In this document: positions 4,034 to 31,135 of the stretch, piece after piece
How the letters are laid out: each line of letters opens with the position of its first letter
How positions within the stretch are numbered: position 1 is the stretch's first letter
Assembly: GCA_030018495.1 (NCBI GenBank)
Contig: JASEFS010000017.1
Location: 38,402-74,849 of the forward strand
Direction of reading: 5' to 3'
Source: Deltaproteobacteria bacterium
Lineage (GTDB): Bacteria > Desulfobacterota > Desulfobaccia > Desulfobaccales > 0-14-0-80-60-11
DNA length: 36,448 nt
Notes under the pieces: model-generated
What the model saw: only the letters and a program-made list of their open reading frames with translations
The model's database searches: none
Told to the model about the DNA's origin: nothing
Position numbers and translations under genes: made by a program

Positions 4034-4666
4034 TCACGACACAAGATGTCTGGTAAACCATGAGACCGCGGTCTGAGCGGCTTGCTCCAAGGTCCCCGGC
4101 TCTTCAAACAGGTGGGTGGCGCCGGGGATAATTTCCAGGTGTTTAACTGCCTTGAGCTTCTCCAAGGCCTGGCGATTCAGGTCCAGGACCGCTTCGTCAT
4201 GCGCTCCGACGATGAGCAGGGTGGGAGACTCCACTTGGTCAAGAATATGCATGGCCAAATCGGGCCGGCCGCCGCGGGACACCACCGCCTTGATGCGGTT
4301 TCCCAGCCGGGCTGCGGCTTTCAGGGCCGCGGCCGCCCCGGTGCTGGCCCCGAAATAGCCGAAGGCCAGGTCTTTGGCCTCCTCCTGTCGGGCCAGCCAT
4401 TCCGTGGCCTTCACCAGCCGCTCGGTTATCAGTTCGATATTAAAACGGTTTTCATAGATTTCATCTTCTTCCCGGGTCAAAAGATCGAAGAGCAGGGTCC
4501 CCAATGCCGCGTTTTGCAGGACTTCGGCCACGAAACGGTTTCTGGGGCTGAAGCGGCTGCTGCCGCTGCCGTGGGCAAAAATAACAATGCCTGCGGCTTT
4601 TTCCGGCAAGGTCAGCATCCCCGGCAGGGTTATGGAGTCCACCCTGATACTTACGTCTTTCTCCAT
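4034..4666 (-). CDS. Dienelactone-hydrolase-like alpha/beta hydrolase
   Basis: About 210 residues from the ATG at 4664-4666, which has a strong GGAGGAG ribosome binding site. An in-frame GTG at 4690 would overlap the upstream gene and is less likely. The fold is an alpha/beta hydrolase of the dienelactone hydrolase group: GIVIFAHGSGSSR (oxyanion region), GYFGASTGAAAAL (nucleophile elbow G-A-S-T-G), LLIVGAHDEAVLD (acid) and the late IPGATHLFEEPG (catalytic His). Substrate is unknown. It directly follows a phosphoribosyltransferase gene with a 20-base gap, a pairing found in many bacteria and sometimes as a fusion protein. A joint but uncharacterised role is likely. Confidence 0.85.
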   Translation of the reverse strand: MEKDVSIRVDSITLPGMLTLPEKAAGIVIFAHGSGSSRFSPRNRFVAEVLQNAALGTLLFDLLTREEDEIYENRFNIELITERLVKATEWLARQEEAKDLAFGYFGASTGAAAALKAAARLGNRIKAVVSRGGRPDLAMHILDQVESPTLLIVGAHDEAVLDLNRQALEKLKAVKHLEIIPGATHLFEEPGTLEQAAQTAVSWFTRHLVS

Positions 4667-4686
4667 GGCACGACTCCTCCGTTTTC

Positions 4687-5328
4687 TCACTGAGTCTTTA
4701 ATAAGGCGATCACCCCTTCATCGGAGACCTGGCTGAAATCGTCGTAATAATAGCCGATGGCCCCCCAAAAAATTTCGGGGATGGTGACCGCCACAAATTC
4801 ATCGACTTCTTCGGCGAACCGTTGGGCCGTTTCTTTGGGAGACACCGCCACCGCCACCACAATTTTTTCGGGCTTCTCCTGCTTGATTTTTTTGACGGCC
4901 GCCAGCATGGTGGAGCCGGTGGCTATGCCGTCATCAACGACAATGGCGATTTTGCCGGTGGCGCTGATAGGCTCCCTGCCCCCGAGATAAAGTTTGCGCC
5001 TTCTTATGGCTTCGTGGATTTGCTTTTCCTTCTCGGCTTCGAACCATTTCGGGTCCACCCTGGCCAAATCTTCCTCATCGACCACCAACAGACCATCTTC
5101 CGCAATTGCGCCCAAGGCATATTCAGGATTCCCGGGATGGCCGATTTTACGGATAATGACCAGGTCCAGAGGGCAATGGAGTTTTCGGGCGATTTCCTTG
5201 GCCACCGGCACCCCTCCGCGGGGCAAGGCGTAGACCACGGCATTCTGATTTTTATATTTGGCAAGCAGCGCCGCCAGCCTCCGGCCGGCATCGACTCGAT
5301 CGCGGAAACGAATGTCATCTCGGTCCAT
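4687..5328 (-). CDS. Type I phosphoribosyltransferase domain protein
   Basis: 213 residues of the stand-alone PRTase family. It opens with FRDRVDAGRRLAALL and has the YALPRGGVPVAKEIA loop. The PRPP-binding motif IVVDDGIATGSTM lies at about residues 128-140, where two acidic residues and TGST contact the ribose phosphate. A C-terminal WGAIGYYYDDFSQVSDEGV segment is typical of this subfamily. No specific base substrate can be named; annotation as adenine or hypoxanthine PRTase is not justified. It forms an operon with the downstream alpha/beta hydrolase. The ATG at 5328 is followed by a normal N-terminus, though the upstream ribosome binding site is weak. Confidence 0.85.
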   Translation of the reverse strand: MDRDDIRFRDRVDAGRRLAALLAKYKNQNAVVYALPRGGVPVAKEIARKLHCPLDLVIIRKIGHPGNPEYALGAIAEDGLLVVDEEDLARVDPKWFEAEKEKQIHEAIRRRKLYLGGREPISATGKIAIVVDDGIATGSTMLAAVKKIKQEKPEKIVVAVAVSPKETAQRFAEEVDEFVAVTIPEIFWGAIGYYYDDFSQVSDEGVIALLKTQ

Positions 5329-5406
5329 GTCGTCTTCTCTATTTATGGCTGATGAAATTTACGCAAGCAAATTACCTTTATTTAGGCCTTATTTAAGCCT
5401 GCCAGG

Positions 5407-8400
5407 TTACCCTGGCAAGCGCTGTTGGCCGTCTTTGCTTTCAATGCTGGACCAGAACCTATGCCTCTGCTCCAGGTGTTCCCGGAGAAAGGCCGCGGTG
5501 TGGGAATCCGGGTTCGCGGCCACCTCCGCGGGGCTCCCCCAAGCCACCAGCCGACCTCCCTCCTCTCCGCCTTCCGGTCCCAGGTCGATGAGGCAGTCGG
5601 CCGCGGCCAGCACATCCAAATCATGCTCGATGATGACCACGGTGTCGCCGCGGTCCACCAGGCGTTGGAGCACGGACAAGAGCTTCGCCACATCAGCCAT
5701 GTGCAGGCCCGTAGTGGGCTCATCCAGGATATAAAAGGTCCTCCCTGCGGGCTCCGCGGCAAGTTCTGCGGCCAGCTTGGTGCGCTGCGCCTCGCCCCCG
5801 GAAAGGGTGGGGCTGGGCTGGCCCAGGCGCAGGTAACCGAGGCCGATATCCGCCAGGAATTTCAGGGGGCGGCTCACTTTGGGGAAGACCTCGAACAGAG
5901 CGAGAGCCTCCTCCACCGTCAGGTTGAGCACCTCGGCGATGGACTTGCCTTTGAAGGTCACTGCCAGAGTATCAGGGTTATAACGGCTGCCGCGGCAAGC
6001 TTCGCAGGGGACGTAAACCACGGGCAGGAGCGGCATCTCCACCTTAAGGTGTCCCTGTCCCTGGCAGCGCTCGCAACGGCCCCCGGTTACATTGAAAGAA
6101 AAACGGCCTGCGTTGTAGCCCCGGGCCCGGGCTTCCGGCGTCTGGGCGAACAAGGCCCTGATCGCGGTCATCACCCCCACGTAAGTGGCCGGCACCGACC
6201 TGGGGGTGCGCCCGATGGGGGATTCGTCCACTTCCTTGACGTGCTGGATCTGCTCCCAACCCTGCAAGTCCGCGAGGTAGGGGGGCAGCGGCTGGCGGGC
6301 CAGCCTGGCCTTGAGGGCCCGGAAGATCACCTGCCGGACGAGGGTGGATTTCCCTGCACCGCTCACGCCGGTGACGCAGACCAGCCGCCCCAGGGGAATC
6401 TCTACTGTCAGGTCTTTCAAGTTGTGAAGGCGGGCGCCCGCCACAGTGAGCCGGTGAGCTCCCTCCAGGGGCCTCGGGCTCCTCTCCGGGGCTTGCGCTT
6501 CGCCCCTGAGCCACAAGCCGGTGGCGGATGCGCGGGATCGGGCCACCGCGGCAGGAGGGCCGGCTGCTACAACTCTGCCGCCGTGGGGTCCGGCGCCCGG
6601 CCCCAAATCGATGACATGGTCCGCGGCCCGGATGACGGCGGCCTGGTGCTCCACCACGACCACGGTGTTGCCGTGGCCCCGCAGCCCGGCAAAGGCCTGG
6701 AGCAGCGCCCGCACATCCCGGGGGTGCAGTCCCACGGTGGGTTCATCCAGGACATAGCAGACCCCCCGGAGGTTGGAGGCCAGTTCGGCTCCGATCCGGA
6801 TGCGCTGCGCCTCTCCGGTTGATAGGGTGTTTACGGCCCGGTCCATGGTGAGATAGCCGACTCCCAACTCTATCAGCAGGCGCAGCCGATTCACCAGCTC
6901 CGGGACGATGCGCTGGGTCACCTCCCGACGGGCCGGCCCCAGGGATTGCACCCACTTGAAAGCCTCCTGCAAGGGCAGGCTGGCCACGTCGGCGATATTG
7001 CGCTCTCCGATCCGAAAGGCCAAGGCTTCGGGACGCAACCGGGAACCCCCGCAGGCGGAGCAAATTTCGGGCTCAGCTTCCTCCCCCTCTTCGGCCCAAA
7101 TATAGCCGTATCCCTGGCAGACCGGGCAGGCGCCGAACTTCTGACTCCAGGTAAACAGCCGCGGGTCGGGGGCGGGCAAGGCACGGCCGCAGCGGGGGCA
7201 GGCCAAGCGGGTGGAAAAGAAGACGTCCGCCCGCCCCGGCGTCGCGGCCACCAACGAGCCGTACCCCAGCTCCAGGGCCTTTTCCACCTGAGCCCGGACA
7301 GCTTCCTCGCGGCCGGGCTCGATCCGGATTCGGGTTACCACGGCTTCCACGTCGTGAATCTGGTACCGGTCCAGGTCCGGGGCCTTGGCGGCAGGAAAGA
7401 TTTGCCCATCCAGGCGAACTTCCTTAAACCCCAGCCTGGCGACCCGCTTGATGATCTCCCGATGGTGGCCCTTGCGTTTGCGCACCAGGGGCGCCAGGAT
7501 CGCCACGTCCAGCCCGGCGAACAGTTGGACAAGCCGGGCGGTGATCCCCGCAGCGTCGGCGGCTTCTCCGGACGTGCCGTCCTCAGGACAGTAGGCTGTT
7601 CCCAGAGACGCGAAGAGCAGCCGCAGATAGTGATAAACCTCGGAGGCGGTGCCGCAGGTGGACATGGCCCCGGCCCGGGAGATTTTCTGCTCCAGGGCCA
7701 CGGTGGGGGGAATGCCTTCGATGTGGTCCACTTCCGGCCGGGACAGCGGCCGGATATACTGGCGGGCATAAGCCGGCAGGCAGTCGAGAAACCGGGCCCG
7801 GCCTTCGGCATAAAGCACGTCGAAGGCTAACGTTGATTTGCCGGAGCCGCTCACCCCGGTGACGACCACCAGGCGGTTCCGGGGGATGTCCACGCGGATG
7901 TCGGCCAGATTGTGCTCCCGGGCGCCGGCGATGACAATAGCCCTTTCCCGGTGTATCATGGGGACGTAGGCTTCCGCACCCGGCTCCGCCGCGAGGCTCA
8001 GCGGCCGGCCGGGTTGGCGCAGAACTTGGCCTGTAGGGGTATTGAGTTCAGCAATCACCTCCGGCGGCCCCTCTCCCACGATGCGGCCCCCGGCGGCGCC
8101 GCCTTCCGGACCCAGATCGATGAGCCAATCCGCGGCCCGGGCCACGTCCATGTCGTGCTCCACCATCACCACCGAGTGGCCGGCCTCCACCAGGCGCTGC
8201 AGTGCCGCCATGAGATCGGCCACGTTGGCGGGATGCAACCCCGCGGTGGGCTCATCCAGGATGAACAGGAGGTCCCCGGCCTTCCGGGCTTCGGCCAGGC
8301 GGCGGGCCAGTTTCAGGCGCTGGGCTTCGCCGCCTGAAAGGGTGGGCGCGGGTTGCGACAGCGTCAGATAGCCGAGCCCGATTTCCAGCAGCGGCTGAAG

Positions 8401-10752
8401 CGCCGCGGTCACCCACTCATCATCCGCGAACAGCCTGGCCACCTCTGCGGCCGGCAAACCCAGGACTTCGGCAATGGTATGGCCCCGGCAGCGCACCTGC
8501 AAAACTTCCGGGCGAAAGCGCCGTCCGTCGCAGGCCGGGCACTTGATGTAAACATCGGGGAGAAACTGCAGTTCCACCAGTTCGAAGCCCGAGCCTTTGC
8601 AATAGGGGCAGGCGCCCTCGGCAGTGTTAAAGGAAAAGGCCGAACGGCTCAGGCCTAAAAGCCGGGCCTGGCGGGTCGCGGCAAAGGCCGCCCGCAGCGG
8701 CTCCAAGACCCTGAGATACGTCGCGGCGTTCATGCGGGAGCTGCGGGTCAGGGGCGCCTGGTCCACCAACACCGCTTCCGAAATAAAGCGGGCGCCCTCA
8801 ATACCCCGGCAAGCCCCCGGCTCCATGGCGGGCAGCCCCATTTCCCGCCTCAGGTTGCGGTAGAGGACCTGGTCCACCAGAGTGGATTTCCCCGAGCCGC
8901 TGACTCCGGTGACACAGACCAGGAGCCCCAGCGGAATTTTCACCGACAGATTTTGGAGATTATTTTCCCGAGCCCCGACGACCCGTAAAGCTTTCGCCCC
9001 TGGTTTCCGCCTTTTAGCCGGCGCGGGGATGACCAGCCCTCCCCGGAGATAGGCCGCGGTGGGAGAGCGGCGTTCCATCAGGAGGCCGCTTACCGTCCCT
9101 TCGTGGACTACCTGCCCGCCCGCCTGCCCCGGCCCCGGCCCCAAGTCGATGACCCGGTCCGCGGCGTGGATGATGAGAGGGTCGTTATCCACCACCAGCA
9201 CGGCATTGCCGTGCTGTGCCAGCCGGCGCAGGACTCCGGCCAGCCTGGCTACGTCCCGGGGGTGCAGGCCAACCGAAGGCTCTCCCAGGACATAAAGGGT
9301 GCTGGTAAGGGAGGCCCCCAGGGCGGTGGCCAGAGTCACCCGCTGGGTTTCGCCGCCTGAGAGAGTTCGCGACTGCCGTCCCAGAGAAAGATAGCCAAGC
9401 CCCACATCCAGGAGATAACGCAGCCGCCCCTGAATCTCACCCAACAACAGTTCTGTGGCCCGGTCCCCGGCCGGCGCCTCCCATTGTCGGAAGAAAGGCT
9501 CGACTTCCGAGATGGGCATCTGCTCCAGTTCGGGAAAAGTCCTGCCCCCCAGCCGGAAGAGGAGAGCCTCTGGCTTAAGCCGGCTGCCGCCGCAGGCGGG
9601 ACAGGGCAGATAGCGCCGGTAGCGGGACAGCAGGATGCGGGCCTGCTTCTTGTACCGGCGGCCTTGCAGCCAGTCGAAAAAACCCTTGATGCCGTACCAG
9701 CTGCCCTCGCCTTCCCAGATGCGCTGCCGGACCCCAGGTTCTAGCCGCCGCCAGGGCATCAGTATGGGAAGGCCCTTTCGCCTGGCATAATCCAGCAGGT
9801 CTTCCTGGCATTCGGAAAAGGCGGGCGTCTGGAAGGGTTTGATACAGCCGGCAGCCAGGCTGAGATTCGGGTCGGGAATCACCAGATCGGGGTCGATGTC
9901 AATGGTGCGGCCGAAGCCGTTGCAAGTGGTGCAGGCGCCGATGGGGTTGTTGAAGGAAAACAGGGCCGGAGTAGGATCGTGGTAGTCCAAGTCGCAGCGG
10001 GGGCAATGGAGCTTTTGGCTGAAGCGCAGGGGTTCTGACTCACCCTCGATCCACACTTCCAACTTTCCTGCCCCGAAGCTCGTGGCTGACTCCAAAGAAT
10101 CGACAATCCGTTCCCGGTGGCCGGCGTCAACGGCAATCCGGTCCAGGACGACGGTGATTATGCCGTCCCGGGGCGTCAACAACGCTTCTTCCAGACTCAC
10201 CGGCCTGCCTTCTTCCAGCACCCGGGCAAACCCGGCCTGGCGGAGGATATCCCGGAGGGCCTCGGGGGCAAGGTCGCCTACATGGCGGCTGAAGCATATA
10301 AAGACCCGCCTTGCCGTGAAGTTTCCGACCAGGACTTGGAAAATGGCAGCCGGCGAATGGCGCTGCACCGGCTGCCCGCATTCCCGGCAATGCAGGGTGG
10401 CCGCCCGGGAGAACAGGGGCCGCAGATAATCATCGATGGAGGTCATGGTTCCCACGGTGGAGCGGGAAGTGCGGACCGGGGCCGCCCTTTCGATGGCGAT
10501 GGCCGGCAACACCCCCTCGATGCGCTCGGCCTCAGGCCGGTCCAGCCTTTCCAGGAATTGCCGGGCATAAGGCGAAAAGGTCTCCACGTAGCGGCGGTAA
10601 CCTTCGGCATAAAGCACGTCGAAGGCAAGGGTTGACTTACCGGCCCCGGCCACCCCGGTCACTACGGTCACCGCGCCCACCGGCACGGAGACCGTGATGT
10701 TTTTGAGGTTGTTCTGCCGGGCGCCCTGCACCCGTATGGGGCTATATGGCAT
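5407..10752 (-). CDS. uvrA: Tandem (double-length) UvrA, excinuclease ABC subunit A
   Basis: 1781 residues: two complete UvrA-type modules in one chain, about 1-920 and 930-1781. UvrA is the damage-scanning ABC ATPase of nucleotide excision repair. There are four Walker A motifs: GVAGAGKST (33-41), GVSGSGKST (616-624), GVSGSGKST (966-974) and GVSGAGKST (1462-1470). Zinc modules lie near 250-277, 715-741, 1185-1234 and 1560-1586. The second module has a good UvrB-binding region ([15 protein letters not shown], 1085-1099); in the first that region is divergent. Catalytic motifs are uneven. The first site has Walker [11 protein letters not shown] (Asp to Gly, about 490) and VDND instead of VEHD (521-524). 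The third has signature LSTGE instead of LSGGE (1310-1314). The second and fourth look intact. Similarly long tandem UvrA proteins are known in Chlamydiae and some deltaproteobacteria. A GAGGAG ribosome binding site precedes the ATG; uvrC is upstream. Confidence 0.95.
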
Positions 10753-14706: not shown

Positions 14707-17700
14707 TTATTCATCTATTTCGTTGTATTCGCGCTTCCGCAGTTCCAACCTCTCTTCGCTTCTGCGCTGTTCGGCGGCAATTCGTCGATCCAGGCTTAAC
14801 AGAAGGCGTCTCGCGAAGGATTGAACCTGTTCTCTTGGATCTTCGAGCCACGGCTCAATCTCGGTTTTCTTTCGTTTATAGGCATCTACAAATCCGAACT
14901 CACCGGTAACTACGCCCGTAGAGCCCAGGGCTGCTTCGATTTCGTTCAGCAGCGGGTCTTCTGGTGGAAGAAGAGCCACGATTTCTTTACAGAGACTATA
15001 TATAAAAACTTGACCATCGTCGTAAGTACGCAGAATCTTAGCCACGAACTCTATATCAGCTTTGTCCCGACTTTCAATGAGGTTTTGTAGGATTAGTTCG
15101 AACTCAGGGGGAAAATTTGGAAAGACGATAGAGAGCAATTGGCCGCCTCGATATTGGAACATCAGCTTGTCTTCCTCAAACCAGGATCGGGACTTTTCCA
15201 ATAAGTATTCAGGAACCTTTGCAAGTTGGTCATGCAAGCGGTAAAATTTGAAAGGTATAGCTTCATATCTGATCTTATCGCCAACCATTGATTTCTGATC
15301 GACTTTCAACCTGGAGTCGAAAAAGTCAACCACCTTAGTCGGCCAAGAGGCTGCAATAGACGCTAAAATATCTTCGACACGGTGGTCTATTTGAGGATGC
15401 CGGACTAAACTTGCAAGTACCTGATCTACCTGTTCCGACTTCAAACCTTCGAGCAGTGATTTTTCTTTACGAGACGGCCATAAGGCGTTTATCCATCTGC
15501 TATCGCCTTTCTCTGTTAGGTAGCCGAGGGCAGGCAGGAATATCCTATCAATCAGCCCCCCTTCGACGTCTCCATGACGCAATGCGCTTGTGCTAACTGC
15601 ATTAAGAACAGCAATATCATCACCGACTTCGATTGCGCCTCTCAGAGCTTCCTCTAGCAAATCTGCGTCGAAATCAGCTGCGAACCCTTCATACCAGATG
15701 ATTTGGGACAGGTACTGGCGCGTTTCGACCCAATGCCTGATCTTCTCTTGTGCGATGTCCCCTTTTCCTCCGCTTTCGAGTCCAGATAACATTGCGGGTA
15801 GGAAGTTTGCGAGCCTATCATCCAGCCGGTCTAGATAAGCGATTAGTATGTTAGGCTTCGACCGCCCAAGCTCTTTCAGAAAGCGCCCAAAGCTTGGGAA
15901 CGTGGCGAGATCGTTCGACTCCGTCTGAGCGCAACGCAACAACCTTGCAAACCATTCGTTGGCGTTTTCTTCGCTGACTTCGTCGACAAGTTTTTTTATC
16001 TGATGGTTACGGTATGCTTCCTGCGCCTCCCAATCGAAATTCGGGTCATCCCATGCTGGTGGAAAGACAGATTCAAATCCCACCAAAACTTTATAAATAA
16101 TAAATTCGTGGTTACTGTTTGTAATGTCGCGAAAATCGAGAATGTGCCTAATCAGCCGCTGGTGGGAAATTGTGATTTCCGGATCACCTGTGATATCGCT
16201 CGGCATATCGAGGCTTCTTCGATATAGCAAAAGTAGCTCATCTTCGAGCGCTTGAAGGAGTTCATAGCTCAGGTCGTTCGCAACTTCTTTGTAAAACTCG
16301 ACAATATTAGCCTTATCGTTCAATACGATTTTGAACAGTTCATTTGAATAATTGCCACGGTGAGGAAATCTCATTGCGGTTGATAATGTATGTATAACTT
16401 CACGCCGTTCAGCGTCTGTTTTGGCATCCCTAAAAAGATCCTTAAGAATCTCAATAGCATTGGAACGCGTATTGATCAGCATCTCGCTGGGGACAACCGT
16501 GCCTGTGTGAATTGTGAACGTTTTGTATGTGCTTGAAGTTCCCTCAACTTCAGGCGCCAGCACTTGCCCGAGAATCTTCAATACAACGGGTTTAATGAAA
16601 ATGAGTTCTTCAATATTAAGACAGCGGATACGCCCCACTAATAAATGCTGAACTAAGGGCCCTACTTGTTTCCAGACATCGAGATTATTCTTGGAAAGGT
16701 GTTCTGCCGATAGGATCAAGCGTTTACGCTCTTCATCGCTCTCAGCGCCAGAGAAAAGCTCACATATGGCATTGAAAGTCGCTTCAACATCTAGATAACG
16801 CAATCGATCGAGAATATCGGCCGCGACACCAACGACCTGCTCAACAGTGAAGCCAGGATGCGCGCCAAAAGGTGTCTCGATAGGTCGCGTCGGCGTCTTG
16901 CGCGCTTGTTTTACTGCCGTCAAAACAGCCGAGCGGATTTCATGCTGAACGCTCTGTAAGTCGTCATAATAAGGAAGTACATATGTAGAAAATCTTTCCA
17001 TCAGATCATGTAGTTCATTATTGTCCTTACTATTCGCAAACGCTGTTAATGCGTCTTGATCAAATAACTCCTTACCTATTGACAGACGTTCAAAATCGGT
17101 AACAACTTTCTGGAATTCGTAGCCAGCAGGCAGCAGATAGTCACGCATTATTTTTTCCATACGCTGTTCGATCTGCTGCATCAATCTACCACCGAAACCT
17201 TTTAGCTTTGGCTTTTTATATATAGTGTCATGCGCCATCTCTGACCACGCATGATTTAACGTTGTTTGAATTTGGACTTCGCACCACAACCCACGAAAGC
17301 GAGCATACTCGGGAAGCGCAATACGTTGCTCGTTAAAGCGTACTACAAAGTTGTGTCCACTGAAGAGTTCAGTGGCACTACTCGTATCTTGGCTTGGGTG
17401 GTGGATTTTAGTACGGTCCCAATCAATTTCGAAGTTATCCCTAACAATGCCAGATAATAAAAACTGAGAAACGTCGGAATTGGTATAAAAAACAAGACGG
17501 CAGCCTGCCAAATCCTTTACAACTTCTTCAATCTTTTCAGTTTCAAGGACCCCGGCTTCTTTAAGCTTCTTCCTAAGAGATTCTGGGTCCTTGGCGCGAT
17601 GTTTTATCTGCTGCAATCCTAGTCGTAATCGGCGGTTGGAGTGCGCCTCTATTGCTGTTTTCAAGACCATTCCAACAGTATCCGCAAGGTCAGCGTAATC

Positions 17701-17736
17701 GCTGCGCCTCTTTTTCTCATACATCTCGAAGTTCAT
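14707..17736 (-). CDS. RelA/SpoT-type nucleotidyltransferase domain fused to large helical C-terminus
   Basis: 1009 residues. Residues about 40-200 match the RelA/SpoT (p)ppGpp-synthetase-like domain. Visible motifs are KHRAKDPESLRKKL (45-58), VKDLAGCRLVFY (73-84), ELFSGHNFVVRF (123-134, in place of the usual GYxSxH), CEVQIQT (152-158) and HAWSEMAHDTIYK (162-174). No HD hydrolase domain is present. The remaining 800 residues are predominantly helical with no motif I recognise, resembling HEAT-like scaffolds, and end in a charged coiled coil (RIAAEQRRSEERLELRKREY). Base composition is foreign: a sampled line has 27/60 G+C, versus 43/60 in the neighbouring membrane gene. An ATTGGAG ribosome binding site precedes the ATG. 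It is a single gene with no partner antitoxin beside it. Known single-domain relatives act as alarmone synthetases or tRNA-pyrophosphorylating toxins; which, if either, applies is unknown. Confidence 0.8.
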   Translation of the reverse strand: MNFEMYEKKRRSDYADLADTVGMVLKTAIEAHSNRRLRLGLQQIKHRAKDPESLRKKLKEAGVLETEKIEEVVKDLAGCRLVFYTNSDVSQFLLSGIVRDNFEIDWDRTKIHHPSQDTSSATELFSGHNFVVRFNEQRIALPEYARFRGLWCEVQIQTTLNHAWSEMAHDTIYKKPKLKGFGGRLMQQIEQRMEKIMRDYLLPAGYEFQKVVTDFERLSIGKELFDQDALTAFANSKDNNELHDLMERFSTYVLPYYDDLQSVQHEIRSAVLTAVKQARKTPTRPIETPFGAHPGFTVEQVVGVAADILDRLRYLDVEATFNAICELFSGAESDEERKRLILSAEHLSKNNLDVWKQVGPLVQHLLVGRIRCLNIEELIFIKPVVLKILGQVLAPEVEGTSSTYKTFTIHTGTVVPSEMLINTRSNAIEILKDLFRDAKTDAERREVIHTLSTAMRFPHRGNYSNELFKIVLNDKANIVEFYKEVANDLSYELLQALEDELLLLYRRSLDMPSDITGDPEITISHQRLIRHILDFRDITNSNHEFIIYKVLVGFESVFPPAWDDPNFDWEAQEAYRNHQIKKLVDEVSEENANEWFARLLRCAQTESNDLATFPSFGRFLKELGRSKPNILIAYLDRLDDRLANFLPAMLSGLESGGKGDIAQEKIRHWVETRQYLSQIIWYEGFAADFDADLLEEALRGAIEVGDDIAVLNAVSTSALRHGDVEGGLIDRIFLPALGYLTEKGDSRWINALWPSRKEKSLLEGLKSEQVDQVLASLVRHPQIDHRVEDILASIAASWPTKVVDFFDSRLKVDQKSMVGDKIRYEAIPFKFYRLHDQLAKVPEYLLEKSRSWFEEDKLMFQYRGGQLLSIVFPNFPPEFELILQNLIESRDKADIEFVAKILRTYDDGQVFIYSLCKEIVALLPPEDPLLNEIEAALGSTGVVTGEFGFVDAYKRKKTEIEPWLEDPREQVQSFARRLLLSLDRRIAAEQRRSEERLELRKREYNEIDE

Positions 17737-26331: not shown

Positions 26332-27657
26332 ATGAAACCCATAAATGTGGGATTGATCGGTTTCGGCACCGTAGGGGAGGGGGTGGCCGGCATGCTGACG
26401 GAGCGTCCCGAGTTGCTGGCCCGGCGTTTGGGGTTTCCCCTCGTCCTGAAAAAGGTGGCCGATATTGATCTCACCCGAAGCCGCGGCTTGCGCCTGGAAA
26501 AAGGCCTTCTCACCTCCCGCAACCAGGACATCCTGGACGACCCGGAAATCTCTATCGTGGTTGAGGTCATCGGCGGCACCGCGGAAGCCCGGAACCTGGT
26601 GCTCGCGGCCATCGACCGGGGCAAGCACGTGGTCACGGCCAATAAGGCGCTTTTGGCGCTTTACGGCAATGAGATTTTCGCGGCCGCGGCGGAAAACAAC
26701 GTAGAGGTGGCCTTCGAGGCCTCGGTCTGCGGCGGCATCCCCATTATCCTGGCGCTGCGCCAGGGTCTGGCGGCCAACCGCATCCAGGAAATGCTGGGGA
26801 TTTTAAACGGCACCGCCAACTATATCCTGACCCAAATGACCGAAAGAAGCAGCTCCTTCGGCCAAGCCTTAAAAGAGGCCCAGGCCAAAGGCTATGCCGA
26901 AGCGGATCCGACTTTGGACGTGGAAGGCATCGACGCGGCCCACAAGCTGGCCATCCTCACGGCCCTGGCCTACGGCACGCGCATCAACTTCGATGCCGTC
27001 AATGTGGAAGGCATCAGCGCTCTTGAGCCCATAGACCTGCAATTCGCCAAGGAATTCGGCTACACCCTCAAGCTTCTAGCCATTTCGAGGAATGACGGCG
27101 GCGCGCTGGAGGCTCGGGTACACCCCACCCTTATCCCCCGGGACCACATGCTGGCCAATGTCAGCGGGGCCATGAACGCGGTCTACGTCACCGGAGACGC
27201 GGTGGGCCCCATCCTCCTGTACGGCCAGGGCGCGGGCATGATGCCTACGGCCAGCGCGGTGGTGAGCGACATCCTGGACCTGGCCCGCAACCTCAGCCTG
27301 GGCATCAGGCGCCGGCTGCCGCCCCTGGGGTCGGAAAAGGCCTTGGAAACCGATCGGCCCATCAAGCCCATGGAAGAAGTGGTCACCAACTACTATATCC
27401 GCTTCGCGGCCCTGGACCGGCCGGGAGTGCTGTCGCAAATTTCCGGTATTCTGGGCCAGCACAACATCAGCATCGCCGCGGTAATCCAGAAGGGCCGGGA
27501 AGTGAAGGGCGCGGTGCCTATCGTCATGATCACCCATGAGGCCAAAGAGGCTAATGTCCGGCGGGCTTTGACCGAAATTGACGGCTTGTCGGTGGTCAGC
27601 CCGCCCGCGATCATGTACCGCATAGAGGATCCCCACCTGCACGCGGCCCAAATTTAA
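26332..27657 (+). CDS. hom: Homoserine dehydrogenase with ACT domain
   Basis: 441 residues; reduces aspartate semialdehyde to homoserine with NAD(P)H on the route to threonine and methionine. The Rossmann motif GLIGFGTVGEGVAG is at 7-20. VVTANKALLALYG (about 102-114) is also seen. The catalytic domain signature GILNGTANYILTQM lies near 160-173, followed by KEAQAKGYAEADPTLDVEG and DAAHKLAIL. The C-terminal ACT domain (YIRFAALDRPGVLSQISGIL, about 351-370 onward) gives feedback control by threonine in this family. Length is normal and it looks intact. The ribosome binding site is weak. A heptad repeat begins right after the stop. Confidence 0.96.
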   Translation: MKPINVGLIGFGTVGEGVAGMLTERPELLARRLGFPLVLKKVADIDLTRSRGLRLEKGLLTSRNQDILDDPEISIVVEVIGGTAEARNLVLAAIDRGKHVVTANKALLALYGNEIFAAAAENNVEVAFEASVCGGIPIILALRQGLAANRIQEMLGILNGTANYILTQMTERSSSFGQALKEAQAKGYAEADPTLDVEGIDAAHKLAILTALAYGTRINFDAVNVEGISALEPIDLQFAKEFGYTLKLLAISRNDGGALEARVHPTLIPRDHMLANVSGAMNAVYVTGDAVGPILLYGQGAGMMPTASAVVSDILDLARNLSLGIRRRLPPLGSEKALETDRPIKPMEEVVTNYYIRFAALDRPGVLSQISGILGQHNISIAAVIQKGREVKGAVPIVMITHEAKEANVRRALTEIDGLSVVSPPAIMYRIEDPHLHAAQI

Positions 27658-27658
27658 A

Positions 27659-27692
27659 GGCGGTTTTCAGTTTTCAGTTTTCGGTTTTCAGT
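27659..27692. repeat. GTTTTCA/GGTTTTC heptad repeat
   Basis: Four heptads immediately after the hom stop codon, the same family as 18391-18424 and 21040-21073. Confidence 0.8.
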
Positions 27693-27842
27693 TGATGGTC
27701 CTGGAATAATTGGAGGCCGGCAGCAGGTTTGCCAAATTATTAAAAATGTATGGGCCTTGGGAAAAACGAGGTGGCGCGGGCATAAAGCGGGATTATGATA
27801 TAAATAGATAAAGAGGTTATCAGATTTTTACGGAGTAGGATC

Positions 27843-28025
27843 ATGGCCAAGATGTATGTCCATAAAAATTGCGAACTTTACCTCACCGGCAGCCCCTACC
27901 GGGAGGATATGTGCAACCTGCCGCTGGATTGCTTCAAGACCGAAGAGGAATACGAGGAGCTGACCGAAAGGGAAAAAAAGGAATATTGTCTGCTCATTGA
28001 CGGCAAGTGCCAGTGCCAGGTGTAA
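27843..28025 (+). CDS. Small six-cysteine protein, unknown
   Basis: 60 residues with cysteines at 10, 24, 30, 49, 56 and 58, and a charged middle (KTEEEYEELTEREKKEYC). No signal peptide is evident, so it is probably cytoplasmic, and the cysteines may bind a metal or cluster. A GGAG ribosome binding site precedes the ATG at 27843. I have no family name for it. It lies between hom and a composite repeat. Confidence 0.65.
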   Translation: MAKMYVHKNCELYLTGSPYREDMCNLPLDCFKTEEEYEELTEREKKEYCLLIDGKCQCQV

Positions 28026-28326
28026 GGGGTCAGGGGTCAGGGGCCAGGGATTACAGGTTAAAGGTTAGGTCCTGGGTTTTGCGTTCTGGGTTTTAGGTTT
28101 TAGGTTTTAGGTTTTAGGTTTTGGGTTTTGGGATTTGGGATTTAGGAAAATAATTATAGGGGCGCACCTGGCGCGTCATATCGTTTGCTAATAAGCAATG
28201 TAGGGCGCGCACGGCGCGCCGATTTTGACGGTCAGCAGAAATGCAGGCGGTCCTGAGTACATGTAAACAGCCTGGCAGCCGGAAGCCGGGGTCAAAGCCA
28301 GGTGGCACAGGCGTCCCGCCTGTGCT
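28022..28326 (+). repeat. Composite repeat, copy A
   Basis: Ordered modules: GGGGTCAGGGGTCAGGGGCC tract (28025-28048), TTTTAGG-type heptads (28071-28145), TAGGGCGCGC...GCGCGCC block with ATATCGTTTGCTAATAAGC (28157-28222), and the palindrome CCAGGTGGCACAGGCG...CCTGTGC (28298-28326). The same modules, in inverted order, form copy B at 32163-32380. Internal order of the GC-block and the ATATCGTTT segment differs between copies. Confidence 0.8.
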
Positions 28327-28446
28327 TTTTTTCAGCAGCAGTAAAAGGCTTATTTGCTGAAATCACGGATAAAGCCGATATAACGGAAGATCAACTTGCG
28401 TGGGCGCGGCTGGCCGGGCCCTTTTAACCTTAAAGGGGAAAATTCC

Positions 28447-28734
28447 ATGAAAGACTTTATGGCCTTCCGCACCATGCTCACCCCCATCATCATCCAGATG
28501 ATCTTCTGGATCGGCTTGGCCGTCTGCGTGGCCATCGGCCTCATATACATAATCACCGGCGCCACGGCCCAGTACGGCGGCAGCGCCAACGTCCTCAAAG
28601 GCTTGGCCATCCTCATCCTCGGCCCCTTGGCCGTGCGCATCTACTGCGAAATCCTGATTATCTTTTTCCGCATCAACGAAACCCTGACGGAAATCAAGCA
28701 TGTGCTGGAGGAGCGGCGGACGCCGCAGTTGTAA
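28447..28734 (+). CDS. DUF4282-type small membrane protein
   Basis: 95 residues from the ATG at 28447, which has an AAGGGGA ribosome binding site; an in-frame GTG at 28396 is less likely. Two hydrophobic segments (about 11-37, MIFWIGLAVCVAIGLIYII; and 50-70, GLAILILGPLAVRIYCEIL) are joined by a short loop. An amphipathic helical tail follows (FRINETLTEIKHVLEE). The MxFRTMLTP start and the RIYCEILIIFFRINE segment fit the DUF4282 pattern. Function unknown; it may act as a small membrane scaffold. Confidence 0.7.
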   Translation: MKDFMAFRTMLTPIIIQMIFWIGLAVCVAIGLIYIITGATAQYGGSANVLKGLAILILGPLAVRIYCEILIIFFRINETLTEIKHVLEERRTPQL

Positions 28735-28798
28735 TTTTTACCTTAAGCAGGGTGCGCACCGCGCACCATTGATAGTAAAATCAGGATGCACCAATTTC

Positions 28799-28954
28799 AT
28801 GGTAAAAAGATGTACTGCAGTCATCAGCGAAGAAGAAGACTGCTATATAGCCCACTGCGTGAAGTTGAACGTCGTCAGCCAGGGGAGAAGCATTCCGGAG
28901 GCCCAGGCTAATCTTAAGGAGGCATTGGAATTATTTGTAGAAAGCTTTTGTTAA
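28799..28954 (+). CDS. HicB-like small protein (antitoxin-type domain only)
   Basis: 51 residues: MVKRCTAVISEEEDCYIAHC followed by KLNVVSQGRSIPEAQANLKE and ALELFVESFC. This is the HicB partial RNase H-like fold (Y-IAHC-L-VVSQG-x3-EA-NLKEALEL). No DNA-binding C-terminus is present and no HicA gene adjoins it. The next gene, 22 bases downstream with a strong AGGAGG site, encodes a PD-(D/E)XK-like protein. The pair may be a non-standard toxin-antitoxin unit or a degraded one. Composition is lower in GC than the flanking genes. Confidence 0.65.
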   Translation: MVKRCTAVISEEEDCYIAHCVKLNVVSQGRSIPEAQANLKEALELFVESFC

Positions 28955-28976
28955 TTTTTTGTTAGGAGGAAAATAG

Positions 28977-29441
28977 ATGAAATTGAGCAAGTATAATTTA
29001 TTCTTATCAGCTAAATATGCCGTTGCTAGCGAATTTTATAGAAGAAACATTTTAAAATTAACTTTAACTGATTTAAGAAAAAACGATATTATATGTCACA
29101 CCAGTAAAAATGCTTATAAAATTAAAGTAAAAGCAAAGCAAGGAAGCGAATGGCCTGGAATAAAAGATATTTATGGCAATGATATGATATTAATCCTCGT
29201 TGACTTTGAAGATAAAGAAATTTTCGAACGCCCTGACTTCTATTTATTAACCTCGGAAGATTGGAGAAATTTACTGTTGCAGAATTACAGTAAATATCTT
29301 GAAAACGGAGATGTGGAATTAGATGATAAGAATACTATCACTTGGATTTGCGAGGAAAAACCATATAAGGGGGTTCTTGTAAAACCTAATGAAATCATAG
29401 AATTCAAGGAGAAATGGGATAAAATAAAAGGATTAACGTAA
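28977..29441 (+). CDS. PD-(D/E)XK nuclease-like protein, unknown
   Basis: 154 residues, strongly AT-rich (a sampled line has 12/60 G+C versus 42/60 in the next gene), clearly of foreign origin. The arrangement AVASEFYRRNI (E19), KNDII (D37), YKIKVKAKQGSEWP (K50-Q55) matches the helix-strand-strand core of PD-(D/E)XK nuclease-like proteins that start with a conserved A-x-E helix and have a VK-x-KQ strand. These are often found with mobile or restriction-like genes. The proline/aspartate half of the site is not fully conserved, so activity is uncertain. Later segments are ILILVDFEDKEIFERPDFYL and EDWRNLL. The AGGAGG ribosome binding site is strong. It sits 22 bases after the HicB-like gene and 11 before the ApgM-like gene. 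Confidence 0.6.
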   Translation: MKLSKYNLFLSAKYAVASEFYRRNILKLTLTDLRKNDIICHTSKNAYKIKVKAKQGSEWPGIKDIYGNDMILILVDFEDKEIFERPDFYLLTSEDWRNLLLQNYSKYLENGDVELDDKNTITWICEEKPYKGVLVKPNEIIEFKEKWDKIKGLT

Positions 29442-29452
29442 TTGAGACAATT

Positions 29453-30652
29453 ATGAAATACATCATCCTCATCGGCGACGGGATGGGGGATTATCCCATT
29501 CCCGAGTTGGGCGGCAAGACGCCCCTGGAGGCGGCAGATACTCCGCATATGGACAAGCTGGCCCGGCGGGGCGAACTGGGCCTGGCCCGGACCATCCCCC
29601 CCGGCATGGAGCCGGGCAGCGACATCGCCAACCTGGCCATCATGGGCTACGACCCGGCCAAATACCACACCGGCCGGGCGCCGCTGGAGGCCGCGGCCCT
29701 GGGCGTGGCGCTCGCGCCCAACGAAGTGGCCTTTCGCTGCAACCTGGTGACCATCAGGGCCGAGCAGAGCGGCCTCTACATGGAGGACTATGCCGCGGGG
29801 CACATCAGCAGCGAGGATGCCAGGGAGCTCATCAAAGCCCTGGAGGCCGAGCTAGGGGCTGACGGCCGCCACTTTTACCCGGGCGTGAGCTACCGGCATC
29901 TGCTGGTATGGGACCAGGGTGACGCGGGCTGGAAGACCTACCCGCCGCATGACCTCACGGGCCAGGAAGTGGGCCGTCTGTTTCAGCACGAAGGCCCGGC
30001 CGCGCCCTTGTGGGACCTCATCAAGGCCTCCTGGCGGGTGCTCCAGACCAATGACCTGAACATGTGGCGGCGCATGGAAGGGAAAAAGCCCGCCAACTCC
30101 ATCTGGCTCTGGGGTCAGGGCAAAGCCCCGCAGTTACCCACTTTAAAAGAACGCTTCGGCCTCAGCGGCGCGGTGATCAGCGCAGTGGACCTCATCCGGG
30201 GCATCGGCCTGTACGCGGGCCTTACTCCCATCAAGGTGCCCGGAGCCACCGGGTATCTGGATACCAATTATGAAGGAAAGGTCAACGCCGCGCTCGAGGC
30301 CTTAAAGGACAAGGATTTCGTCTTCATCCACGTGGAGGCCCCGGACGAAGCCGGCCATAAGGGCGAATTGCAGCTCAAGCTCCAGGCCATCGAGGATTTC
30401 GACCGGCGCGTGGTGGGTCCCCTGTTGGAGGGTTTGAACGGGCTCGGCGACCACCGGGTCCTGGTCATGTGTGACCACCTGACGCCCATCTCCGTCAAAA
30501 CCCACACCCCCGAGCCCGTGCCCTTTGTGCTCTATGATTCCCGCATGCAGGGAGACTGTGACCGGCAATATTCCGAGGCCGCGGCGCAGTCGAGCGGCCT
30601 CATCCTGGAGCAGGGCGCGGATTTGCTGCCCCGTTTATTGCAGGTCGGTTAA
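29453..30652 (+). CDS. ApgM-like phosphoglycerate mutase / proposed alternative homoserine kinase
   Basis: 399 residues of the alkaline-phosphatase superfamily, archaeal-type cofactor-independent phosphoglycerate mutase group. Metal-site motifs are LIGDGMGDYPIPELGGKTPL (6-25), the nucleophile serine S56 in PGSDIANLAIMGYDP, HVEAPDEAGHKGE and CDHLTPISVKTHTPEPVPF. Members of this group in bacteria that lack ThrB and lie beside homoserine dehydrogenase have been proposed to be homoserine kinases. The position after alaC-like and hom supports that here. The alternative is a true glycolytic phosphoglycerate mutase. The normally close hom-apgM spacing has been enlarged by about 1.8 kb of repeats and foreign genes. 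The ribosome binding site is weak. Confidence 0.85.
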   Translation: MKYIILIGDGMGDYPIPELGGKTPLEAADTPHMDKLARRGELGLARTIPPGMEPGSDIANLAIMGYDPAKYHTGRAPLEAAALGVALAPNEVAFRCNLVTIRAEQSGLYMEDYAAGHISSEDARELIKALEAELGADGRHFYPGVSYRHLLVWDQGDAGWKTYPPHDLTGQEVGRLFQHEGPAAPLWDLIKASWRVLQTNDLNMWRRMEGKKPANSIWLWGQGKAPQLPTLKERFGLSGAVISAVDLIRGIGLYAGLTPIKVPGATGYLDTNYEGKVNAALEALKDKDFVFIHVEAPDEAGHKGELQLKLQAIEDFDRRVVGPLLEGLNGLGDHRVLVMCDHLTPISVKTHTPEPVPFVLYDSRMQGDCDRQYSEAAAQSSGLILEQGADLLPRLLQVG

Positions 30653-30664
30653 GTAATCCCTTAC

Positions 30665-31135
30665 CTAACGACCCTTGGTCGGGCCAGTATCAGGTTGATT
30701 GATTATATATTCCGTTAATTGCTCAAGATTCTTTTTGTCTTCTTTCAGAAGGGTCTTGGTTGTATCGGCTGTTATGATGTTTTTCAGTTTAATGGTGATC
30801 TGATTGCCGCGTTGGGCGGTATAACTGCTGCTCAAATCAGCTGTGGTTTTGCCGGCCGGCACAACTACGGGGCTCATTTCAAGATAAAGGCTGCCGCCCT
30901 GTTGCCCGGTGGCGCTGACGTTGAACACCACTGTCACCTCATCGGTAAGCAGCCCTGTTTTTACTCCGCCCTGGGCCTGTCGCATTTCCACAATCCCCTG
31001 GCCTACCGATCTCATGGCCTCTTCCAGCGTGATGGTGCCCGGTCTCGGGACTACCTGGGAGGCGCATCCCATAATTAAGAAGAGGCCGGCAAAGGCAGAA
31101 ATAACAGCTGCAAATCTTTGGTTTATCTGGTTCAT
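30665..31135 (-). CDS. Lipoprotein with Trypco2-like domain
   Basis: 156 residues. The signal peptide ends in lipobox LIMGC (Cys24). The mature part, ITLEEAMRSVGQGIVEMRQA then VTVVFNVSATGQQGGSLYLEM and NQITIKLKNI, has the helix-strand-strand-strand layout of the trypsin-co-occurring domain 2 type (LxEAIxxLRxEL ... VELEL ... HxVxLxL). That domain occurs beside effector and protease modules in conflict systems. The assignment is by pattern only. No protease gene adjoins it. It is convergent with the ApgM-like gene, 12 bases between stops. Confidence 0.6.
   Translation of the reverse strand: MNQINQRFAAVISAFAGLFLIMGCASQVVPRPGTITLEEAMRSVGQGIVEMRQAQGGVKTGLLTDEVTVVFNVSATGQQGGSLYLEMSPVVVPAGKTTADLSSSYTAQRGNQITIKLKNIITADTTKTLLKEDKKNLEQLTEYIINQPDTGPTKGR

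Follow-up and report, generated by a model that had tools for sequence, protein, structure and literature searches.

HicA and HicB are described to "occur strictly as unique pairs" (PMC2701414). According to the sections of PMC10865869 drawn on here, Class 2 hicBA loci encode a HicB of 63–103 codons devoid of a DNA-binding domain, and Class 1 HicBs shortened by stop codons do occur. I-Ssp6803I, in turn, is characterized in the corresponding part of PMC1995217 as a homing endonuclease of the PD-(D/E)XK type.

Here, we analyzed a stretch of 36,448 nucleotides (hereafter the window) from a draft deltaproteobacterial genome (3.46 Mb in 63 contigs), in which a short HicB-like open reading frame (ORF1, designated hicB') is followed by an AT-rich open reading frame (ORF2). 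The initial annotation of this locus had offered two readings, a new toxin–antitoxin arrangement or two separate passengers. As described below, it is highly probable that a decaying hicBA remnant lies beside a foreign, solitary and probably inactive nuclease gene, without any toxin–antitoxin relation between the two.

Organization of the locus

The two open reading frames are located in the interval between a DUF4282 gene and apgM, with the following features:

28447–28734, forward strand: DUF4282 gene, left border of the interval (PF14110, E = 6.5e-13, scanned from 28396)
28750–28767, forward strand: GGGTGCGCACCGCGCACC, a dispersed palindrome-like repeat just 5' of hicB'
28799–28954, forward strand: hicB', a 3'-truncated HicB antitoxin open reading frame of 51 amino acids plus stop (homology to 73-amino-acid HicB relatives)
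28964–28969, forward strand: Shine–Dalgarno motif AGGAGG of ORF2, 7 bases before the ATG (sequence)
28977–29441, forward strand: ORF2, AT-rich, 154 amino acids, with a PD-(D/E)XK fold close to I-Ssp6803I
29013–29015 and 29124–29126, forward strand: codons of ORF2 K13 and K50, respectively (alignment of relatives)
29453–30652, forward strand: apgM-type phosphoglycerate mutase gene, right border (NCBIfam NF003242, E = 2.4e-171, and synteny)

A spacer of 22 bases (28955–28976) separates ORF1 from ORF2 and harbors the AGGAGG motif, in agreement with the strong ribosome binding site initially annotated there. ORF2 ends 11 bases before apgM, and a homoserine dehydrogenase gene is found further upstream of DUF4282. 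The base composition changes stepwise inside the interval, with GC contents of 56.9% for DUF4282, 44.9% for ORF1, 29.9% for ORF2 and 64.2% for apgM, and a GC3 of 29.0% for ORF2 versus 83.0% for apgM. The AT-richness ascribed to ORF2 was hence borne out, although the value of about 20% GC given for a sampled line was slightly low, the lowest 60-base line (29060–29119) having 23.3%.

Allowing up to two mismatches, GGGTGCGCACCGCGCACC is matched 24 times in forward and 18 times in reverse orientation in the source genome (control: 2 and 2), including three exact copies. A sequence resembling it also precedes hicB in another HicB locus (L005). Irregular repeats of the GGTTTTA/GGTTTTC type were observed between the dehydrogenase gene and DUF4282 (28065–28146 and 27659–27691). 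No common word of at least 7 bases indicative of flanking direct repeats was detected between 28701–28830 and 29381–29470. Promoter-like sites numbered 5 versus 2.4 expected, and terminator-like sites 1 versus 1.4 expected. Elsewhere in the window, on the reverse strand, we noted by eye a 1009-residue open reading frame (14707–17736) whose start resembles a RelA/SpoT-type region, and a 1781-residue open reading frame (5407–10752) with repeated ABC ATPase motifs, resembling a doubled UvrA.

The interval in related genomes

Each of the 22 genomes searched within the family has a match to apgM, but the one from the same genus (G001, 84% complete) contains only a distant copy with 39% identity. 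Synteny was evaluated at the best apgM loci of 20 other genomes (L035–L054) over at most 1.5 kb upstream, and less in some. DUF4282 is present upstream of apgM in 10 of these 20 loci (L035, L037, L038, L039, L041, L042, L044, L045, L048 and L053). Four of them additionally display the dehydrogenase gene and a 60-amino-acid gene in the order seen in the window (L037, L038, L039 and L045), and two the dehydrogenase gene without the 60-amino-acid gene (L042 and L044). One further locus (L046) has both of these genes without DUF4282, and these neighbors are absent from the upstream stretches examined at the other loci.

Measured between the end of the DUF4282 alignment and the start of apgM, the distance is 43–218 bases in 8 of the 10 loci, compared to 721 bases in the window. 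Larger distances were encountered only in L041 (about 765 bases) and L053 (about 905 bases), where the interval carries a different small open reading frame, the one in L053 being without a Pfam match. Since the related intervals mostly span 43–218 bases, hicB' and ORF2 represent extra DNA in a gene string common to part of the family.

ORF2 has a PD-(D/E)XK fold and an altered active site

None of 2000 mononucleotide shuffles of 28955–29452 generated an open frame of 154 codons (longest, 112). Given this shortfall and the existence of five relatives with 36–45% identity (see below), the ORF2 frame is not a product of chance. ORF2 was without a match in PHROGs, PADLOC and NCBIfam. A weak Pfam hit to DUF4261 (32 residues, E = 0.047) was set aside, as the fold shows otherwise. 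PDDEXK_5 matched three of six family members at E values up to 1 (best, 2.7e-4), the window ORF2 not being among them, and PF11645 gave no match in the source genome, where the control was also silent. Likewise, sequence-based searches of the PDB using alignments A2 and A4 or three single members returned nothing credible; A4 omits L077, which contains an internal TGA, and L080, whose two genes are also those of L075.

An AlphaFold model of ORF2 built with six sequences reached a mean pLDDT of 86.3 and a pTM of 0.83. With Foldseek alone, this model had no match reaching E = 0.001; the top one was I-Ssp6803I (2ost, E = 8.4e-3), and most of those ranked behind it were Holliday junction resolvases. 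Using VIA-align, ORF2 and 2ost were superimposed with a Z score of 12.3 over 113 residues (rmsd 2.3), the next best structure scoring 10.2. The predicted structure accordingly contains the PD-(D/E)XK core fold. The PD-(D/E)XK likeness suggested from the sequence therefore holds for the fold and fails for the active site, as outlined in the following.

Within a 14-row alignment, Asp37 and Lys52 of ORF2 are invariant. The column of K13 is occupied by Glu in 11 and Gln in 2 of the 13 other rows, and that of K50 by Gln (8), Glu (3), Asp (1) and Arg (1, in L076), a comparison that depends on an alignment containing small gaps around the Asp. Both lysine codons read AAA, a single G-to-A step away from GAA. 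In the arrangement catalytic acid–Asp–(Asp/Glu/Gln)xLys, ORF2 hence retains Asp37 and Lys52, and K13 and K50 replace the remaining two residues. In other members, the fold would bind DNA and cleave it with four site residues, Glu, Asp, Gln or Glu, and Lys. Because lysine occupies two of the four site positions, the window ORF2 is probably catalytically dead and no longer cuts DNA; most likely, it would at most still bind DNA.

Distribution of the ORF2 family

ORF2 is present as a single copy in the source genome (E up to 1), and a single-sequence search matched 3 of 198 genomes, the source genome included. A pattern scan across a collection of 84,980 species revealed at least five close relatives, a lower bound as the scan relied on a three-row alignment and two short patterns. 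These relatives are found in a member of the Chloroflexota (L064), the Desulfarculaceae (L065), the Clostridiaceae (L066), the Phycisphaerales (L067) and Candidatus Binatus (L068), three of the five belonging to other phyla according to their record titles. The genes of L065 and L068 are those of G084 and G172, respectively. A wider profile search over 395 genomes of the phylum matched 11 genomes, 8 of which were new and contained more distant relatives; three loci (L069–L071) duplicate loci already known. At one locus, two different distant relatives of the family are arranged in tandem on one strand (L085 in G302, 6920–7417 and 7530–7994).

No relatives were detected by tblastn in plasmids and phages, and none were confirmed in viral contigs with the two short patterns, by which relatives can be missed. 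Moreover, no relative close enough to the window copy for gauging selection was found. Overall, ORF2 is unnamed by four family libraries (PHROGs, PADLOC, NCBIfam and Pfam), and its relatives are thinly scattered over distant phyla.

Mobility of ORF2-like genes

Two of the close relatives are informative with respect to how such genes travel. In L067, the gene is flanked by pta and, after 9 bases, lpxK. In L068 (site at 4623–5717), it is located between a histidine kinase gene and a sigma-54 response regulator gene, which look like ntrB and ntrC. Compared with a sister species from this genus (G241), the flanking DNA is 91% identical on one side and 92% on the other, but the 1.1 kb between the flanks in L068/G172 is replaced there by 1.3 kb containing the following gene on the other strand:

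L112:5421–6464 (L112 corresponding to G241:C35:76000–90000): PIN_12 gene, E = 2.4e-20

Translated comparison placed the two regulator genes close together in another relative, L094. At the L068/G241 and L067 sites, the ORF2 family gene accordingly behaves like a solitary mobile passenger lodged between other genes.

This exchange is the argument for viewing the family as solitary accessory nucleases, defense-like or toxin-like, whose genes trade places with those of other small nucleases at variable sites. We regard this view as possible, if rather unlikely, as the exchange was seen at one site only, PADLOC yielded no match, no relative was detected in phages and plasmids or, with the two short patterns, confirmed in viral contigs, and the catalytic residues of the window copy are altered. 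We would give still less weight to a more general reading, namely a small cross-phylum family of solitary I-Ssp6803I-like PD-(D/E)XK genes that move singly into housekeeping gaps, by homing or as cargo, and of which the window copy would have lost catalytic residues and kept its frame, perhaps persisting as a DNA-binding protein.

That the family consists of free-standing homing endonucleases inserting beside housekeeping genes, with a fixed and degenerating copy in the window, appears improbable. The closest fold is indeed that of a homing endonuclease, the family is sporadically distributed, and the single-gene sites at lpxK, between ntrB and ntrC and 11 bases before apgM are all in the same strand orientation as their neighbors; the loss of catalytic residues would also fit such a life cycle. 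However, neither a group I intron nor any other Rfam match was obtained for 27600–30700 at E values up to 1, and L065 appears by eye to lie outside any obvious housekeeping operon. The ntrB–ntrC gap of G241 carries an unrelated PIN-domain gene and not an empty site, for which reason cargo exchange at a hotspot is preferred to homing.

The ORF2 nuclease family may be worth keeping in view, as one sister-species comparison found the place of a relative taken by a PIN nuclease, and would help studies of how single small nuclease genes spread among bacteria.

hicB' is a truncated antitoxin gene

The HicB-type domain of 51 residues recognized in the initial annotation was corroborated, residues 1–50 of ORF1 matching a 73-amino-acid HicB of the same family with 66% identity (E = 1.8e-22 against the interval). 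Homology extends to Ser-Phe, after which only a Cys codon and the stop remain, so that the last 23 residues of the 73-amino-acid relatives are lacking. Identity to the eight best matches in other genomes is 60–68%, and UPF0150 was matched with E = 0.0018, below the cut-off of that family.

Seven of the eight loci with at least 60% identity were fetched. In six of them, HicB comprises 73 amino acids from the aligned Met and is directly followed by an overlapping hicA; the seventh (L010) encodes a 57-amino-acid HicB without HicA. The identity of HicA was verified with HicA_toxin in L006 and L009 (E = 3.1e-19 and 1.3e-18). Apart from the window, 29 HicB loci were fetched in total, and HicA was detected in 18 of them using a profile of five close HicA proteins, which misses distant HicA. 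By eye, alaS was noticed upstream of hicB in L005, L006, L008 and L011.

Neither a hicB tail nor hicA was detected above chance in 28735–29452, confirming the reported absence of HicA. The locus therefore comprises HicB-type sequence without an adjoining hicA and without a complete HicB. The HicB relatives of ORF1 fit Class 2 hicBA as delineated in the pertinent part of PMC10865869. The lack of a DNA-binding tail, although correctly observed, is therefore normal for this type of HicB; the anomaly is that the domain end and hicA are both absent. In a draft assembly of 63 contigs, the hicB end may also reflect an assembly error. The lost tail is expected to contain the final beta strand of HicB, whose fold is beta-beta-beta-alpha-beta, and we therefore infer a loss of function for hicB'.

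Three other HicA genes are present in the source genome, and solo antitoxins are referred to as common, with action in trans proposed, in the relevant passage of PMC2701414. It nevertheless seems very unlikely that the 51-amino-acid fragment is a working solo antitoxin restraining a HicA encoded elsewhere in the genome, given that two of these three hicA genes have, by eye, a small hicB open reading frame of their own beside them, and that the fragment is without its tail and shorter than the 63–103 codons stated for Class 2 in PMC10865869.

Co-occurrence of HicB and ORF2-like proteins

A conserved co-occurrence of HicB with a PD-(D/E)XK protein was not found. Neither hicB nor hicA was detected near any of the five close ORF2 relatives, within stretches of 5.8–10.4 kb (for L064, only ~370 bases downstream), and no ORF2 relative was detected at the 29 other hicB loci, covering ~1.5 kb on each side at most. 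In the first stretches examined for the eight distant relatives, hicB was found at one locus (L079, 22% identity), where a complete hicBA with a 67-amino-acid HicB precedes the nuclease gene in the same orientation, ending ~175 bases before it. With longer flanks, hicBA was also found ~3.9 kb away from another distant relative (L084). A literature search returned no paper naming both HicB and PDDEXK, and among the matches listed for solo or re-partnered HicB, no title indicated a HicB and PD-(D/E)XK pair.

On balance, these results favor two passengers, L079 being the one result which leans the other way. The comparison across genomes thus speaks against the proposed pair, the contrary case being one of eight distant relatives behind a complete hicBA, and the alternative of two separate passengers gains support from the missing co-occurrence and the truncated HicB. 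A new type II toxin–antitoxin pair, in which the 51-amino-acid HicB domain would neutralize a PD-(D/E)XK toxin, is the least probable of the readings considered, for although the genes are adjacent on the same strand, with the antitoxin-like gene first and a strong ribosome binding site on the second, and although L079 offers a distant parallel, the HicB of L079 has its own HicA, the window HicB is truncated, likely catalytic residues are missing from ORF2, and the part of PMC2701414 concerned reports no other HicB partner. As a toxin–antitoxin candidate, the locus is consequently of little importance, the pairing most likely being an accident of position.

Proposed origin of the locus

Taken together, these results suggest a model in which an insertion or rearrangement between DUF4282 and apgM joined two separate passengers, in one event or in two. 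ORF1 would represent the front of a compact hicBA operon from which the hicB end and all of hicA were lost, leaving hicB' non-functional or at most a solo antitoxin fragment. ORF2 would be a solitary gene that arrived by horizontal transfer and encodes an I-Ssp6803I-type PD-(D/E)XK protein, an origin which we consider highly probable as part of this two-passenger reading as a whole. Points that count against this reading are the hicBA neighbors of L079 and L084, the modest best Foldseek value, the alignment gaps near Asp37 and the Arg of L076 at position 50, which bear on the argument from K13 and K50, and the intactness of both frames together with the strong ribosome binding site, owing to which ORF2 may still be translated and useful.

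Comparison with known systems

Like Class 2 hicBA, the locus contains the front of a compact HicB, ORF1 aligning to the 73-amino-acid HicB whose gene precedes an overlapping hicA in the relatives; unlike Class 2 loci as described in the cited part of PMC10865869, it has neither the last 23 residues nor hicA, and falls short of 63–103 codons. ORF2 shares its core fold with Hjc-type Holliday junction resolvases (Z up to 10.2), from which it differs by an identity of 8–14% in the matches listed and by lysine at two of the four site positions.

The closest described system for ORF2 is I-Ssp6803I. ORF2 differs from it by an identity of only 12%, the absence of a PDDEXK_5 match, the two site lysines and a locus without a group I intron. 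The two proteins nonetheless have the same fold (Z 12.3 over 113 residues), and the ORF2 site positions 13, 37, 50 and 52 are spaced closely to positions 11, 36, 49 and 51, which we take to be those of the I-Ssp6803I site.
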